This document shows, piece by piece, positions 607-45,593 of a DNA stretch of 64,000 nucleotides. This stretch comes from an uncultured Actinomycetes bacterium (GTDB lineage Bacteria > Actinomycetota > Actinomycetes > Nanopelagicales > Nanopelagicaceae): positions 1 to 64,000 of the forward strand of contig CAILHY010000014.1 of NCBI GenBank assembly GCA_903834145.1, read 5' to 3'. The notes beneath the pieces were generated by a model. The model worked only from the letters and a program-made list of their open reading frames with translations. It was not told the origin of the DNA and made no database searches. The position numbers and the translations under genes were made by a program. Each line of letters begins with the position of its first letter. The stretch's first letter is position 1.

Positions 607-1374
607 ATGTCTGAATTAGAAACAGCAAAACGCCTTGCATGGTGGAAGCGTGCCGATGCCAAGAAAGCTGTAGTGCTTTGGGCAATTTTCACTCTCGTGA
701 TTGGCTATGTCGCATCTACCATTCAAACGCGCGTCATGGGATCCGCTGCATCTGAAAATATGTCCAGCACCATCAACATGATCAAAATCTTTACCTGGGC
801 CGCTTCTCCTGTCGCAGGTTTAGTGGCCGCACTAACAATTACTACATTGTTAGGTAAGCGACATTTCGGCGACAACCCTCCACCTGAAGCAGAACACGAA
901 ATTCGCAACAGCCCAAAAGTTGCGGCAACGTGGGTAGTCGTTTCAACATTGCTCTGTCTCTTTGCTGTGATTTACGGAATGGTGCTTGTTCAGAAAGATG
1001 AGAACAATCTTCGCTCGGCAAATTCACTCAATATTGATGTTACTGGCCAACAGTGGGCGTGGAGTTTTAATTATGTAGATAACGGCGGTGCACAAAGCGC
1101 TGATCTTTATCTACCCGTTGATAAGCACGTTGTCTTTCACGTAACGAGCACCGATGTGATGCACTCATTCTGGATAGTTCAAATGGGTATCAAAGTCGAT
1201 GCCAACCCTGGATACATAACCGAGACAGCAACAACACCCAACAAGATTGGTGTGTATGACTTGCGGTGCGCAGAACTGTGCGGCCTCTACCACGCATACA
1301 TGCAGAAACAAGTTCACGTTGTGAGCCAAGCCGATTATGACGCGTGGGTTCAAAGCCAAGGAGGAAAAGCCTGA
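607..1374 (+). CDS. ctaC: Cytochrome c oxidase subunit II
   Basis: Subunit II of the aa3-type oxidase; it accepts electrons from cytochrome c at the CuA centre outside the membrane. There are two N-terminal membrane segments (about residues 20-40 and 60-85, with another hydrophobic stretch near 105-125), then a cupredoxin domain. The QWxWxF motif (QWAWSF) and the CuA signature C221-A-E-L-C225-G-L-Y-H229-A-Y-M232 are intact, with the first His in VMHSFW. The ATG follows GGGGGCG and is 13 bases after the upstream cupredoxin gene. Its stop overlaps the ctaD start (TGATG). There is no fused cytochrome c domain and no obvious lipobox Cys at the N-terminus. Identification is firm. Confidence 0.96.
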   Translation: MSELETAKRLAWWKRADAKKAVVLWAIFTLVIGYVASTIQTRVMGSAASENMSSTINMIKIFTWAASPVAGLVAALTITTLLGKRHFGDNPPPEAEHEIRNSPKVAATWVVVSTLLCLFAVIYGMVLVQKDENNLRSANSLNIDVTGQQWAWSFNYVDNGGAQSADLYLPVDKHVVFHVTSTDVMHSFWIVQMGIKVDANPGYITETATTPNKIGVYDLRCAELCGLYHAYMQKQVHVVSQADYDAWVQSQGGKA

Positions 1375-3251
1375 TGACAACAGTGACAAATCGGCCCGCA
1401 CCAGCAGGTCCAACGGCGCCAAAGAAGGCGCTCATTGAAAGACTCAGCATCATCACCGGCCTACTACTCGGCGTCGTTGGAGCACTTTTGTGCTGGTATC
1501 TCGCCCGTACTTTCCTTCCTGTAAACACTGATGGTTCCTACATCAAAACTCGTATGGATCAAGAAGTATTTATCGCCATGATCGGTTGGTTTGTTGGCTT
1601 CATGACAGGAATGGGCGCACTCATTGGACCATTTCGTTGGTTGCTCGGAAAAGATCTCACACACGATGAGAACATGTTTTATGCCGGCAAAGATCAAGGC
1701 GTAAAGCGTTACTTCCGATACACGACAGATCACAAGGTTGTGGGCATTCAGTATCTTGTCATCACGATGGTCGTCTTCTTTGTAGGTGGCGTTCTTGCGA
1801 TGCTGATCCGCACAGACCTTGGTCACAAAGGTGGCAATTGGTTACAACCACAGACTTACAACACTGTTGTAGGAATGCATGGAATCACCATGGTCGTTGG
1901 CGCCATCATCATGGTCACGGGACCTTTCGGTAACTTCATCATGCCAATCATGATCGGTGCGCGCGATATGGCTTTCCCTCGCCTGAACGCCCTGAGCTTC
2001 TGGTTAGTTGTTGCTGCGGTACCACCACTTCTCTCAGCGCTATGGCTTGGCGGAATTCCTACTGGTTGGTCCGCCTATAACCCATTAGAGAATCAAGCTC
2101 CTCCAGGAATGGATGGATTCATTATGGCCATCTGCATCTTTGCGATTTCTACCATGGTTGCTGGTGCAAATATCACAGCAACGGCAATCAAGATGCGTGC
2201 CAAGGGAATGACATGGAACCGCACCCCGATCTTTATCTACGGTGTTGTTGCATCCGTTGCACTTGCACTTCCTGTCTTTCCGGTCTTCTTCCTTTCCCAA
2301 GTTTTGTCAGGGCTAGATCGGGCAACTGGATCCACGTTCTTTGATGTACGGGGTGGTGGAAGTCCATGGCTCTATGAGAACTTGTTCTGGATCATGGGAC
2401 ACCCTGAGGTCTACGTAATCCTGATTCCTTCACTTGCTGCGTTGATGGAGATGGCGCCAGTATTTACTCGTCGCCCACTCTTTAGTTTCAATTTAGCAAT
2501 CATGGGTATCGCCGGAATTTCAGGTCTCTCTGTTTTGGTCTGGGCTCATCACTTGTACGTCAGTGGCTGGGCTCCACTCCTGAATGGTCCATTTATGTTG
2601 ACGACCGAATTGATTTCGATACCGACGGGAATGCTTTTCCTGGTGTTGATCGGAACTCTTTGGCGAGGGCGGGTCTGGATTACTCTGCCCACCGCTGCCA
2701 TTTATGCAGTTCTCCTTAACTTCACCATCGGTGGAATCACAGGCATCTATCTCTCAGATGTTTCTGCTGATGCAGCGCTGCATGGTTCCTTGTTCGTAAC
2801 GGCGCACTTTCATTACACGTTAATGGGCTCTGGACTCACTGCCGCCATCGGCGCAATGGTCTATTGGTTCCCAAAAATGACAGGGCGCATGTTCGATAAG
2901 AAACTGGGCTGGACTGCATTCTGGATTACTCAAATCGGTTTCCAGATTACTTTCATGGGAATGTTCATGGTTGGTCTTGCCGGACAACCGCGACGCGTTG
3001 GTGCGATTTCTGATTTCTTCCATCAAGGAAACGTCATCGCAACTGCGGGTGCCTACATCATTATGGCGGGAATGTTGGTCTTGCTTCATGGCGTTGTAGT
3101 TTCATGGGTCTGGGGAGTGAAAGCGCCTCAAAATCCTTGGTTCGCTAAATCCCTCGAGTGGAGCGTTGCCAATCCAGTTCCGCTCGAGAACTTTGCTGTT
3201 CTTCCTGTAGTTACTGAAGATGTATACGGTTATGGAAAGGCACAATCATGA
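1374..3251 (+). CDS. ctaD: Cytochrome c oxidase subunit I
   Basis: Catalytic heme-copper subunit of the terminal oxidase. The start at 1374 is chosen because AAGGAGG lies at 1358-1364 and the ATG overlaps the ctaC stop; an in-frame upstream codon at 1344 would run far into ctaC. At 625 residues it is longer than the usual 550-580. The canonical core begins near residue 105 (YTTDHKVVG) and is preceded by an extension with two extra membrane segments. Visible hallmarks are the heme a ligand in GMHGITMV, HPEVY with the CuB His and cross-link Tyr, WAHHLYVSG with the other CuB His pair, and TAHFHYTL with the two heme His. It is co-transcribed with ctaC and ctaE. Confidence 0.97.
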   Translation: MTTVTNRPAPAGPTAPKKALIERLSIITGLLLGVVGALLCWYLARTFLPVNTDGSYIKTRMDQEVFIAMIGWFVGFMTGMGALIGPFRWLLGKDLTHDENMFYAGKDQGVKRYFRYTTDHKVVGIQYLVITMVVFFVGGVLAMLIRTDLGHKGGNWLQPQTYNTVVGMHGITMVVGAIIMVTGPFGNFIMPIMIGARDMAFPRLNALSFWLVVAAVPPLLSALWLGGIPTGWSAYNPLENQAPPGMDGFIMAICIFAISTMVAGANITATAIKMRAKGMTWNRTPIFIYGVVASVALALPVFPVFFLSQVLSGLDRATGSTFFDVRGGGSPWLYENLFWIMGHPEVYVILIPSLAALMEMAPVFTRRPLFSFNLAIMGIAGISGLSVLVWAHHLYVSGWAPLLNGPFMLTTELISIPTGMLFLVLIGTLWRGRVWITLPTAAIYAVLLNFTIGGITGIYLSDVSADAALHGSLFVTAHFHYTLMGSGLTAAIGAMVYWFPKMTGRMFDKKLGWTAFWITQIGFQITFMGMFMVGLAGQPRRVGAISDFFHQGNVIATAGAYIIMAGMLVLLHGVVVSWVWGVKAPQNPWFAKSLEWSVANPVPLENFAVLPVVTEDVYGYGKAQS

Positions 3252-3856
3252 GCGTCGATCATGCACACACCGCACATCACGAACATCCAGATGCAGTCGG
3301 ATCACGAAACCGCCTCGGCGTAGTTCTGATCCTTGTTGCAGATATCGCGTTTGCACTCAGCGTTCTCTTTGTCTACTTCTATCTGCGTGGACAAAATGTC
3401 AATGGGCTCTGGTTACCAAAAGCTAGTTCCACTGCACCTGCAACAATTCCGGTTGCTATTGCTGGCACATGGTATGTCACCATCATCGCGGCCGTGGGTC
3501 TTCTGACTCATCGTTATGCGTTAGCAGGAGCTCGCGCCAAGAATCAAGCGCAACTGAATTTGGGTTCACTGATTGCGTTGATAGCCAGTGTTCTCGCACT
3601 TGCCTATCAAGTGATCTTAATGAACGGCGCTGCATTTACAATCACGATGGGTGCCTACGCATCCTGCTATTACCTCATCGCAGGACTTAACGTCATGCAC
3701 TTGCTCTTCACGGTATTTATCGCGTTGGGTAATTGGAATCGCGCTCGCTTAGGTATCTACGCAGCCGATCATTGGCATGTAGATATCGTCCAAGTGTGGT
3801 GGATCTGGATGACGGTCTCCTCATTGTTTGGAGCATTTGCACTCTCCTTCAAGTAG
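3248..3856 (+). CDS. ctaE: Cytochrome c oxidase subunit III
   Basis: Membrane subunit III of the oxidase, 202 residues with five hydrophobic segments. The conserved end (DHWHVDIVQVWWIWM) is clear, including the His/Asp/Trp-rich WHxVDxVW motif of the family. The N-terminus is His-rich and cytosolic. The ATG overlaps the ctaD stop (ATGA), which indicates translational coupling. This is the last gene of the oxidase unit; a strong inverted repeat follows 20 bases after the stop. Heme O synthase (ctaB) for the same enzyme lies 10 kb downstream. Confidence 0.95.
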   Translation: MSVDHAHTAHHEHPDAVGSRNRLGVVLILVADIAFALSVLFVYFYLRGQNVNGLWLPKASSTAPATIPVAIAGTWYVTIIAAVGLLTHRYALAGARAKNQAQLNLGSLIALIASVLALAYQVILMNGAAFTITMGAYASCYYLIAGLNVMHLLFTVFIALGNWNRARLGIYAADHWHVDIVQVWWIWMTVSSLFGAFALSFK

Positions 3857-3875
3857 ACACCTTTCACCCTCGAGC

Positions 3876-3908
3876 GAAGGCACTGCGCTAACCTTGCGCA
3901 GTGCCTTC
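3876..3908 (+). terminator. Perfect 13-bp hairpin after ctaE
   Basis: GAAGGCACTGCGC (3876-3888) and its exact reverse complement (3896-3908) flank a 7-base loop. Placed just after the oxidase operon it looks like an intrinsic terminator, but the T tract that follows is weak (TTCGTTG). The loop holds the -10 box of the next gene and the right arm contains its start codon, so the structure may also be regulatory. Confidence 0.6.
3889..3894 (+). promoter_or_regulatory. Leaderless-type -10 box (TAACCT) of the DMT transporter
   Basis: TAACCT is followed by exactly six bases (TGCGCA) and then the GTG at 3901. The same spacing recurs at nine other genes in the window. The box lies in the loop of the hairpin at 3876-3908. 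Confidence 0.55.
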
Positions 3909-4800
3909 TTCGTTGAAAAATAAATCCTGGCTTCCGGTATATATCGCTCTTGGAATTGTCTGGGGATGCTCATTCATTTTTATTAAGTTGGGCCTTGAGT
4001 TCCTCACACCTGTTGGGGTCGCCTTTGGGCGCACCGCCCTTGGTGCACTTGCACTAGTTGTTGTCAGTAAATCTCGAAAGATTTCACTACCCACAGATAA
4101 GCGGATATGGGCGCACTTGTGGGTTGTAGCGATGTTGCTCAATGTTGTCCCCGGTGTACTTTTCGGCCTGGCAGAAACTCATGTCACATCGATCTTGGCA
4201 GGAATTATCAACGCGGTAACTCCATTGATGACGTTGTCCGTCATGATGATCGTCTTTCGCGAAGAGAGAGCAAAGAGTTACCAAGTAGGCGGGCTCATAA
4301 TTGGGTTCCTTGGAGTCCTGACGGTTCTAGGTGCATGGCATGGCCTTGGCGCCAATCCAATCTCGGCAATCGTGGCTTTACTTGCCGCAGTGCTTTGTTA
4401 TGGCTTCGCATTTCCGTATTCGCGTAAATTCGTTCTGCCTTACAAACTCAGACCGGAAGCCGCTGCGACAACTCAAGTGTGCTTGGCTGCGGCAACACTC
4501 CTACCGTTCTATTTAATGAACGGCATTGCACGCGATAATTACCGTCCAGGCCCGGTTTTAGCGATGATTGCCCTCGGGGTATTTGGTACGGGATTTGCCT
4601 ACATTTGGAATTTTCAGATCATGGCAGCTGCAGGAAGCGCCATTGCAAGTTCGGTAACGTATGTGACACCTGTTGTTGCAGTGATTGTTGGAATAATTTT
4701 CTTGGGTGAGAATCTTTCTTGGAACGAACCTTTAGGGGGCGTAATCGTTTTACTGGGTGCGGCAATAAGCCAGGGGAGGCTTGGACTTAATCGAGAGTAA
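3901..4800 (+). CDS. EamA/DMT-superfamily transporter
   Basis: Inner-membrane transporter of the drug/metabolite superfamily, 299 residues with ten predicted membrane helices in two EamA repeats (about residues 10-140 and 150-290). It probably exports an amino acid or small metabolite; the substrate cannot be read from sequence. The GTG start at 3901 is supported by a TANNNT box exactly six bases upstream, so translation is probably leaderless; a TTG at 3913 is the alternative. It converges on the NiCoT gene with a 14-base overlap of the 3' ends. Confidence 0.85.
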   Translation: MPSSLKNKSWLPVYIALGIVWGCSFIFIKLGLEFLTPVGVAFGRTALGALALVVVSKSRKISLPTDKRIWAHLWVVAMLLNVVPGVLFGLAETHVTSILAGIINAVTPLMTLSVMMIVFREERAKSYQVGGLIIGFLGVLTVLGAWHGLGANPISAIVALLAAVLCYGFAFPYSRKFVLPYKLRPEAAATTQVCLAAATLLPFYLMNGIARDNYRPGPVLAMIALGVFGTGFAYIWNFQIMAAAGSAIASSVTYVTPVVAVIVGIIFLGENLSWNEPLGGVIVLLGAAISQGRLGLNRE

Positions 4801-6008: not shown

Positions 6009-6025
6009 ATGCAAATCGTTTGCAA
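6009..6025 (-). promoter_or_regulatory. Candidate Nur (nickel regulator) box upstream of the NiCoT gene
   Basis: On the minus strand the site reads TTGCAA-ACGAT-TTGCAT. This matches the Streptomyces Nur consensus tTGCaa-N5-ttGCAA at 11 of 12 positions. The core TGCAAA-N3-TTTGCA is a perfect palindrome. It sits 34 bases before the permease start, a position that suits repression. Confidence 0.6.
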
Positions 6026-14445: not shown

Positions 14446-15659
14446 AGGGCTTGTTCAATATCTCTGAGCAGATCGGCGGGATGTTCCAATCCAACTGAAA
14501 GTCGCAAAACGGATTCAGTGATGCCCATCTCTGCCTGAACTTCTGGCGTCAAACGTCTATGGGTACTTGAAGCTGGATGTGTAATGAGTGATTTGCTATC
14601 ACCTAAGTTATTGGAGATATCAATAATGCTTAAGGCATTCATAAAAGCAAAGGTATCTGCCTGTTTTCCAGCAAATTCAATACCTATGGTGGAACCACCA
14701 CCCACCATCTGTTTTTGCGAAACAGCGTAGCCGGGATGAGATTTCAAGCCGGGATATCGAACGCTCTTAATTTCAGGGCGAGTTTCCAAGAATTCTGCAA
14801 TTAGTTGCGCGCTTGAATTCATACGTTCTACGCGCATACTCATTGTCTCTAAGGATTTAACGAGCACCCATGCGTTAAATGGACTCAAGGAAGGTCCTGT
14901 GTGGCGGATGAATGGATTGAGTTTTTCTTTAATGTAGGAAGCACTTCCCAGGATTGCTCCAGCAAGGACTCGACCTTGACCATCAATATGTTTAGTTGCT
15001 GAATACATCACCACATCTGCGCCATGTTGTAGCGGCTTTTGTAATACGGGGGATGCCATAACGTTATCGATGATCACAGTGGCGCCAACTTGATGCGCTA
15101 GATCGCTCACCATTTGGATATCCACGACATCCAACATTGGATTGCTCGGTGTTTCCAGAAAGACCACTTTGGTTGGTTTTGATAAAGCCTTGGCCCAGAC
15201 CTCAGGATCATTGCCTTGAACGAGCTCTGTCGTGATTCCCCACTTGGGAAGAATTTCCATTAAAACAACGTAACAAGAGCTAAACATTGAGGCCGATGCA
15301 ACTATGTGGTCTCCTGCGCTGACCATGCATGCAACAGAGGCAAACATCGCTGACATTCCAGATCCTGTACCCACGCACATTTCTGCACCTTCGATGGCTG
15401 CAAGGCGTTGTTCAAACATAGAAATTGTTGGGTTAGCAAAACGGCCGTAGAGAAAATGGTCAGTCTCTTCAGCAAAAGAGGATTCGGCTTGTTCCGCGCT
15501 GGAATAGGTAAATCCGCTATTGAGATAAAGCGCTTCAGAAGTCTCACCAAAACCTGATCGAGCGAGTCCCGTTCGGATTGCGTGGGTATCTGGGTGTACT
15601 TCCCATGATGGCTCCGGACGTTCATTTTGCGGCTGATAGCCCCATGGGCGTTTTCTCAT
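14442..15659 (-). CDS. metZ: O-succinylhomoserine sulfhydrylase
   Basis: PLP-dependent enzyme of the Cys/Met metabolism family that makes homocysteine from an activated homoserine and sulfide, in direct-sulfhydrylation methionine synthesis. It has about 405 residues. Family marks are YGRFANPT near residue 70, the substrate/PLP region ETPSNPMLDVVD, and the Schiff-base Lys in YSATKHIDGQGR. The NSGFTYSSAEQAE and SATKHIDGQGR forms favour MetZ over MetB or MetY, but O-acetyl- versus O-succinyl-homoserine use cannot be proved. The ATG at 15659 is preferred to 15683 because a TACACT box lies exactly six bases upstream and the longer form would overlap the divergent ABC gene. Confidence 0.88.
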   Translation of the reverse strand: MRKRPWGYQPQNERPEPSWEVHPDTHAIRTGLARSGFGETSEALYLNSGFTYSSAEQAESSFAEETDHFLYGRFANPTISMFEQRLAAIEGAEMCVGTGSGMSAMFASVACMVSAGDHIVASASMFSSCYVVLMEILPKWGITTELVQGNDPEVWAKALSKPTKVVFLETPSNPMLDVVDIQMVSDLAHQVGATVIIDNVMASPVLQKPLQHGADVVMYSATKHIDGQGRVLAGAILGSASYIKEKLNPFIRHTGPSLSPFNAWVLVKSLETMSMRVERMNSSAQLIAEFLETRPEIKSVRYPGLKSHPGYAVSQKQMVGGGSTIGIEFAGKQADTFAFMNALSIIDISNNLGDSKSLITHPASSTHRRLTPEVQAEMGITESVLRLSVGLEHPADLLRDIEQAL

Positions 15660-15665
15660 GTGGCA

Positions 15666-15675
15666 AGTGTAAGGT
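15666..15675. promoter_or_regulatory. Overlapping divergent leaderless-type -10 boxes
   Basis: AGTGTAAGGT contains TAAGGT on the plus strand (15670-15675, six bases before the ATG at 15682). On the minus strand it contains TACACT (15671-15666, six bases before the metZ ATG at 15659). The boxes share two base pairs, and the start codons are only 22 bases apart. Confidence 0.6.
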
Positions 15676-15681
15676 GCGAGC

Positions 15682-16605
15682 ATGTCTACTCAATCAAATC
15701 CAGAACTGGCGATTTCGGTCAAGGACCTCACCAAAATCTACGGCGACCGGCCAGCCGTATCCCACGCTAATTTCGAAGTCCCACTTGGTACGGTCTGCGG
15801 ATTCGTAGGTCCCAATGGCTCGGGCAAGACCACAACTATGCGCATGCTTTTAGGGCTAATTACACCAACGGGCGGCACCGGCGTGATTTTGGGCCAACCG
15901 ATCAATCATCCAGAGCGCTATCTACATCGCGTTGGCGCCATGATTGAAGGCCCTGCTTTTTACCCTGCACTATCAGGTGCAGAAAATCTCCGAGTGCTTG
16001 CAACTTTGGGCGGTTATGAAACTGATCAGGTTCAAGGATTGCTCGAACGCGTGGGCCTTGGTGATCGAGGGGATTCCAAATACAAAACGTATTCACTAGG
16101 CATGAAGCAACGTTTAGGAATTGCCGCCGCGCTATTGCCCAACCCACAACTACTCATGCTTGATGAACCGACAAACGGTTTGGATCCTGCAGGTATTCAA
16201 GAGATCCGCGAATTACTTCGCGACCTTGCTAATGAGGGAACTACGGTTTTTGTTTCCTCTCACTTACTTTCTGAAATTGAAATGATAAGCGATTCTTTAG
16301 TGATGCTTCGCAAGGGTGAAGTGATCTTTGCTGGCAAGACTCAAGATTTATTGCTTCGTCAACAACCAACAATTATTGCTAAGAGTTCTGACCCGCAAGA
16401 TCTCACTAAGTTGTTGGAGATCGCGCACAATGCTGGTCACGAAGGAACAATCATTGACGGGGCCGCGCACATTCTTGGCCCTACAGATTGGGCACCCATT
16501 CTCAACAAGATGGCATTTGATGCAGGAATCACGTTATCGCAACTTGCACCGATGCTTCCATCCCTTGAGGAAACTTTCTTTGAAATGACAGGAGACTCCG
16601 AATGA
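15682..16605 (+). CDS. ABC-2 type exporter, ATP-binding subunit
   Basis: 307 residues. Walker A is GPNGSGKTTTMR, the Q-loop region follows, the signature is YSLGMKQRLGIAAAL, Walker B is LLMLDEPTNGLDP, and the H-switch is FVSSHLLSEIE. The ~80-residue C-terminal extension is typical of BcrA/CcmA-like exporter ATPases. It pairs with the overlapping permease gene downstream (ATGA). The substrate is unknown; drug, lipid or peptide export are the usual roles. The start is fixed by a TANNNT box six bases upstream rather than by a ribosome site. Confidence 0.92.
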   Translation: MSTQSNPELAISVKDLTKIYGDRPAVSHANFEVPLGTVCGFVGPNGSGKTTTMRMLLGLITPTGGTGVILGQPINHPERYLHRVGAMIEGPAFYPALSGAENLRVLATLGGYETDQVQGLLERVGLGDRGDSKYKTYSLGMKQRLGIAAALLPNPQLLMLDEPTNGLDPAGIQEIRELLRDLANEGTTVFVSSHLLSEIEMISDSLVMLRKGEVIFAGKTQDLLLRQQPTIIAKSSDPQDLTKLLEIAHNAGHEGTIIDGAAHILGPTDWAPILNKMAFDAGITLSQLAPMLPSLEETFFEMTGDSE

Positions 16606-45558: not shown

Positions 45559-45593
45559 CTGGGCGCAGGGGTAAAACTCTGCGCCCAGTTTTT
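45559..45593 (+). terminator. Terminator-like hairpin after the sugar-binding-protein gene
   Basis: CTGGGCGCAG (45559-45568) and CTGCGCCCAG (45579-45588) are exact reverse complements, followed by TTTTT (45589-45593). It stands inside the operon, 10 bases after the binding-protein stop and before the permease genes, so partial termination would leave the binding-protein mRNA in excess. Confidence 0.8.

Follow-up and report, generated by a model that had tools for sequence, protein, structure and literature searches.

A predicted leaderless promoter nested in an RNA hairpin that may insulate a transporter gene from the upstream cytochrome c oxidase operon

Results

The window analysed here, a 64-kb stretch of DNA from an actinobacterial genome assembly of 1.75 Mb, carries a cytochrome c oxidase operon followed on the same strand by the gene of an EamA/DMT-family transporter (Table 1). 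Between the end of the ctaE stop codon (3856) and the transporter lie a 19-base gap and then a perfect 13-bp inverted repeat. Its arms, GAAGGCACTGCGC (3876-3888) and GCGCAGTGCCTTC (3896-3908), are fully complementary around the loop TAACCTT (3889-3895), and the right arm carries the GTG start of the transporter. This anatomy can be read directly from the DNA, and it confirms the preliminary description, in which a perfect 13-bp repeat with this loop, and with the GTG in its right arm, had been placed after ctaE.

Table 1. Features of the ctaE-transporter junction in the 64-kb window.
Feature	Position	Strand	Supporting observation
Cytochrome c oxidase operon (ctaC, ctaD, ctaE), the transcription unit upstream	607..3856	+	Pfam COX2, COX1, COX3; ctaE stop 3854-3856
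Hairpin left arm	3876..3888	+	Unchanged in 6/6 carrier species
-10 hexamer TAACCT (TANNNT type) of the predicted transporter promoter, in the loop	3889..3894	+	TANNNT enrichment; position kept in orthologues
6-nt spacer, hexamer to start codon	3895..3900	+	Exactly 6 nt in 51/72 orthologues
Hairpin right arm, with GTG start, coding for V-P-S	3896..3908	+	
Start codon GTG, where a leaderless mRNA is predicted to begin	3901..3903	+	Sole in-frame start in G020, G009, G019
EamA/DMT-family transporter gene, 299 aa	3901..4800	+	PF00892, E 3.7e-33
U-rich stretch TTCTTCGTT, possible weak terminator tail, also encoding Ser-Ser-Leu	3906..3914	+	T at 5 of 8 bases; score of +7.0 (d'Aubenton type)

The repeat at 3876-3908 is the longest perfect inverted repeat of the window; in 10 Markov-randomised windows the longest measured 0-12 bp (0 meaning none of at least 9 bp). 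The region 3857-3930 folds with -31.9 kcal/mol (z -7.0). The same palindrome is present in six of the 21 genomes of the genus (hereafter the carriers), every time between ctaE and the transporter, and an extra match with three mismatches in G011 is unrelated. Scanning about 85,000 species genomes with a degenerate pattern retrieved the five other carriers and nothing else, the repeat-bearing relatives being actinobacterial MAGs. No second copy was found in the source genome with up to three mismatches allowed, and a dispersed palindromic repeat or a multi-site operator was discarded on the basis of one copy per genome. A search for a phage origin of the palindrome gave no match, and comparison with structured RNAs in Rfam gave sub-threshold matches only, none above the gathering score.

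Six of the seven loop bases belong to the hexamer TAACCT. In the window together with about 310 kb of stretches from relatives, 300 first starts were compared with internal ATG or GTG codons, and TANNNT stands exactly 6 nt ahead of 15.3% of the former and 0.4% of the latter; the enrichment is found at offset 6 only, with no comparable peak elsewhere. When hexamers were accepted as [TC]ANNNT, the order hexamer, six bases and start codon was kept in 51 of 72 transporter orthologues, including 14 of 15 within the genus, although the hexamers themselves vary (TAACCT, TATTGT, TACTAT, TACTGT and CATCAT). Several more distant genera have Shine-Dalgarno-like sequences at the transporter instead. GTG 3901 shows the hexamer placement of a leaderless TANNNT promoter, no Shine-Dalgarno sequence lies ahead of it, and in three of the six carriers no other codon could serve as start. 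Initiation further on, at TTG 3913, was rejected, since that codon is TTA in three carriers, which offer no alternative. As judged from these sequence patterns, the transporter promoter is very probably leaderless. The earlier identification of the loop as the -10 box of the DMT transporter is thus upheld by both the enrichment at offset 6 and the conservation among orthologues.

Folding predictions gave the GTG an unpaired probability of 0.00 in the read-through RNA of all six carriers. The same value was obtained for G018, in which an unrelated 8-bp stem without a U-tract is likewise predicted to bury the GTG. By comparison, 52 other leaderless-type starts had a mean unpaired probability of 0.36, and 6% of them were equally closed. 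In the predicted leaderless RNA, from which the left arm is absent, the GTG is mostly open, with values from 0.29 (G019) to 0.98. The proposal that a read-through transcript would hide the start codon and a leaderless one would not is therefore borne out at the level of predicted unpaired probabilities. It is not the case that leaderless promoters generally lie inside hairpins: among 68 leaderless-type starts, stems of at least 8 bp enclosing the hexamer occur only at the seven that belong to the transporter gene, and those of other genes reach at most 5 bp.

These predictions point to the following arrangement. RNA polymerase would read TAACCT (3889-3894) on the DNA and initiate at the G of GTG 3901 or at an adjacent base. 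The resulting mRNA would be leaderless and would lack the left arm, and its start codon would consequently be mostly free. RNA of the cta operon, on the other hand, would carry both arms and fold into a hairpin of 13-17 bp, burying the GTG, so that the transporter would not be translated when its message comes from read-through; the hairpin may also promote termination directly after the stem. With the start buried in read-through RNA only, and with termination as a possible addition, the element would insulate the transporter from oxidase expression. We consider this leaderless promoter nested in an insulating RNA hairpin, with or without termination, to be probable, if by no means secure. 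Shielding of the start codon, and thereby insulation, is the most likely role of the hairpin.

Conservation of the hairpin block is strong. Across the six carrier species 31 of 35 positions are invariant; of the 111 four-fold sites of the transporter, 6 are (Fisher p 2e-21). Identity at four-fold sites among carriers is about 30-56%, close to saturation, with the exception of the close pair G009/G019, and the bases from the ctaE stop to the repeat show no conservation. The loop reads TAACCTT in five carrier species and TAGTCTT in the sixth, where TANNNT is retained; a fixed loop is what a promoter placed within it predicts. Variation in the stem nearly always preserves G.U pairing, with 98.9% of cells paired, and the lone unpaired cell (G000) lies in the outermost part, outside the 13-bp stem. 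Within the 13-bp stem, changes are one-sided and pairing is kept in all six carriers. Compensatory stem changes, which the preliminary description had named as a check, were sought in this comparison and did not appear, the tolerated variation being all one-sided. Covariation as proof of pairing thus failed, with zero two-sided changes among carriers; the stem variation is compatible with RNA pairing, yet offers no covariation.

Loss of the repeat in close relatives at unchanged gene order had been named beforehand as an observation that would refute the proposal, and the outcome is divided. Seven members of the genus keep the order of ctaE, or its tail, and transporter without the repeat, which indicates that insulation is not essential, while the six carriers keep the repeat almost unchanged.

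The position of the hairpin about 20 nt past the ctaE stop, its GC-rich stem and its U-rich tail would also suit a cta operon closed by an ordinary intrinsic terminator, overlapping by chance with a compact promoter, start occlusion having no role. The core stem in the carriers (-17.2 to -20.5 kcal/mol) is that of a stable GC-rich hairpin following a gene. Related oxidase operons often close with terminator-like hairpins, classical terminators follow ctaE in more distant members of the family, and the ctaE-transporter junction of G015 contains a separate strong hairpin whose end runs into the -10 of that genome; termination is thus plausible, though unproven. Conservation of the stem would be no obstacle, as ordinary terminator stems are conserved too: the strong classical terminator between two genes at 45559-45588 of the window keeps its stem sequence in G020 and G005, with a varying loop. 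The terminator scores, a rule of thumb based on the d'Aubenton Carafa formula, are less favorable, being borderline in all six carriers (-4.8 to +7.0) compared to +41.8 for the terminator at 45559. The hairpin at 3876-3908 was not called by a simple terminator scan. In addition, the hairpin of G018 buries the GTG without having a U-tract. A terminator and nothing more is, in our judgment, quite improbable, and termination of the oxidase operon by the hairpin is plausible but weakly supported. The preliminary description had let termination and initiation use the same 33 bases; its promoter and start stand, and its terminator is not established, the score being borderline and the U-rich tail coding. 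If termination occurs, it would fall roughly between +5 and +15 relative to the transporter start, in which case we infer that termination and initiation exclude each other at any moment.

The symmetry might also be read on the DNA. In the carriers the dyad has as its exact axis the fourth base within the -10 hexamer, and two dyads of unrelated sequence have their axes on the same hexamer base: CTTTCACC-N15-GGTGAAAG in G018, with 8-bp arms, and the perfect 8-bp palindrome TTAGTTAC-T-GTAACTAA in G008 (L082 9400-9430), which lies between divergent genes and has TANNNT on both strands. Among 51 orthologous promoters, no others have 8-bp arms at any of 64 centres. A putative dimeric regulator could bind such a dyad over the -10 and repress the transporter, the RNA hairpin being a by-product. 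The common axis of three unrelated dyads, together with G008, where the upstream gene is divergent and there is consequently nothing to terminate, is the strongest point for this operator or for another role centred on the promoter. The near-invariance of both arms fits sequence-specific recognition, and that of the left arm could come from a DNA-binding protein instead of RNA pairing. Several observations nevertheless argue against the operator. The variable inner positions of the right arm break DNA symmetry and keep RNA pairing, and the three dyads share no half-site sequence beyond the start codon. Neither of the two marks of a dimeric repressor, additional binding sites elsewhere in the genome or a regulator encoded nearby, was found: the palindrome is a single copy, its outer half-sites are not clearly above chance level either, and the nearest genes, which were scanned for domains, encode no regulator domain. 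We therefore hold a DNA operator to be unlikely. That same-axis dyads arose at least three times (carriers, G018 and G008), with selection repeatedly favoring symmetry at the promoter of this one gene, recognised as DNA by a regulator, as RNA or in both forms, is a tentative suggestion that we put forward with considerable doubt.

A dyad of another kind, TGCAA-N5-TTGCA, was observed at 6010-6024 of the window, upstream of a NicO nickel-transport gene (start 5974, - strand). It is also found at L070 7920-7942 and L085 6680-6706, and is extended to TAGATGCAAATCGTTTGCATCTA in G013. It resembles the sequence to which the nickel regulator Nur binds.

The junction retains traces of its history. In genomes of the sister genus, the 3' end of ctaE contains both a CATCAT -10 and the GTG of the transporter, and G310 reads CATTGCTCGGTGCCTTC at the site where carriers read CCTTGCGTGGTGCCTTC, a likeness which suggests that the right half of the hairpin descends from the ctaE-internal promoter of the sister genus. 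In L092, L093, L094, L096, L107, L114 and L146, ctaE is undetectable upstream, and a stub of its last codons with CATCAT-N6-GTG is retained. Trees of the transporter and of NicO place five carriers together and G007 apart, whereas the ctaD tree scatters the carriers, implying that the hairpin remained attached to the transporter as the oxidase genes were exchanged or diverged. With G007 outside the other five and the ctaD tree scattered, a single-clade origin of the repeat is unsupported. The sister-genus arrangement and the likeness of G310 would also suit a historical accident, the right half being a remnant of an earlier ctaE copy whose 3' end included the transporter promoter and start, and the repeat being functionless today. 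As a statement of function this is unlikely, and the conservation of the hairpin across nearly saturated synonymous divergence makes it extremely improbable that the repeat is such a relic.

Discussion

The arrangement favored here, a start codon shielded in read-through RNA and free in RNA from its own nested promoter, has counterparts in well-known systems. In mobile elements of the IS10/IS50 type, the transposase is protected from outside transcription by an inverted repeat that hides the start in read-through RNA only. The transporter hairpin is predicted to occlude its start in the same manner, but it is not a mobile element and is present as a single copy at one junction.

A closer relative is gene e (lysozyme) of phage T4, whose start is hidden by folding in the long early RNAs but not in those initiated at a promoter inside the structure; the mechanism was shown experimentally and also applies to soc, 49 and I-TevI (PMC3014915). 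Here, too, transcripts from the internal promoter, which lack the 5' arm, would be readable and long upstream transcripts would be occluded, the computed folds having the start paired in the long RNA and mostly free in the RNA from the internal promoter. Differences are that the gene lies on a bacterial chromosome, that its mRNA is predicted to be leaderless, and that the hairpin, perhaps also a terminator, holds the -10 in its loop and the start codon in its stem. It is a predicted cellular version of the phage T4 trick, in actinobacteria that probably belong to the freshwater acI/Nanopelagicales group.

The promoter itself belongs with a described class of actinobacterial leaderless arrangements, in which, according to the available portions of the two sources, a TANNNT -10 is set so that transcription begins at the start codon (PMC3898074, PMC3160421). 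What would distinguish the present case is the hairpin built around the hexamer, of which those portions make no mention. With intrinsic terminators it shares a GC-rich stem past a stop codon and a U-rich tail, but the tail is weak and doubles as coding sequence, and the loop, unlike theirs, is fixed because it is the promoter. A literature search, which given its limited coverage is weak evidence, found no promoter inside a terminator loop in these bacteria.

If nested promoter and shield are both real, 33 bases would combine a promoter, a start site, N-terminal codons and a start-codon shield, perhaps with a terminator as well, and compact genomes could insulate neighbouring genes without intergenic space. 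Such insulation would be unusually simple for leaderless genes, in which it is the promoter itself that determines the accessibility of the start codon. The junctions of the orthologues, with a ctaE-internal promoter, a separate promoter, a hairpin, or a decayed ctaE and its stub, would then provide a natural series for the uncoupling of genes.

Elsewhere in the window, at 15657-15684, the leaderless-type promoters of two divergent genes share two bases of their -10 hexamers, TAAGGT on the + strand (15670-15675) and TACACT on the - strand (15666-15671). Their start codons are 22 bp apart, making this a very compact bidirectional promoter.
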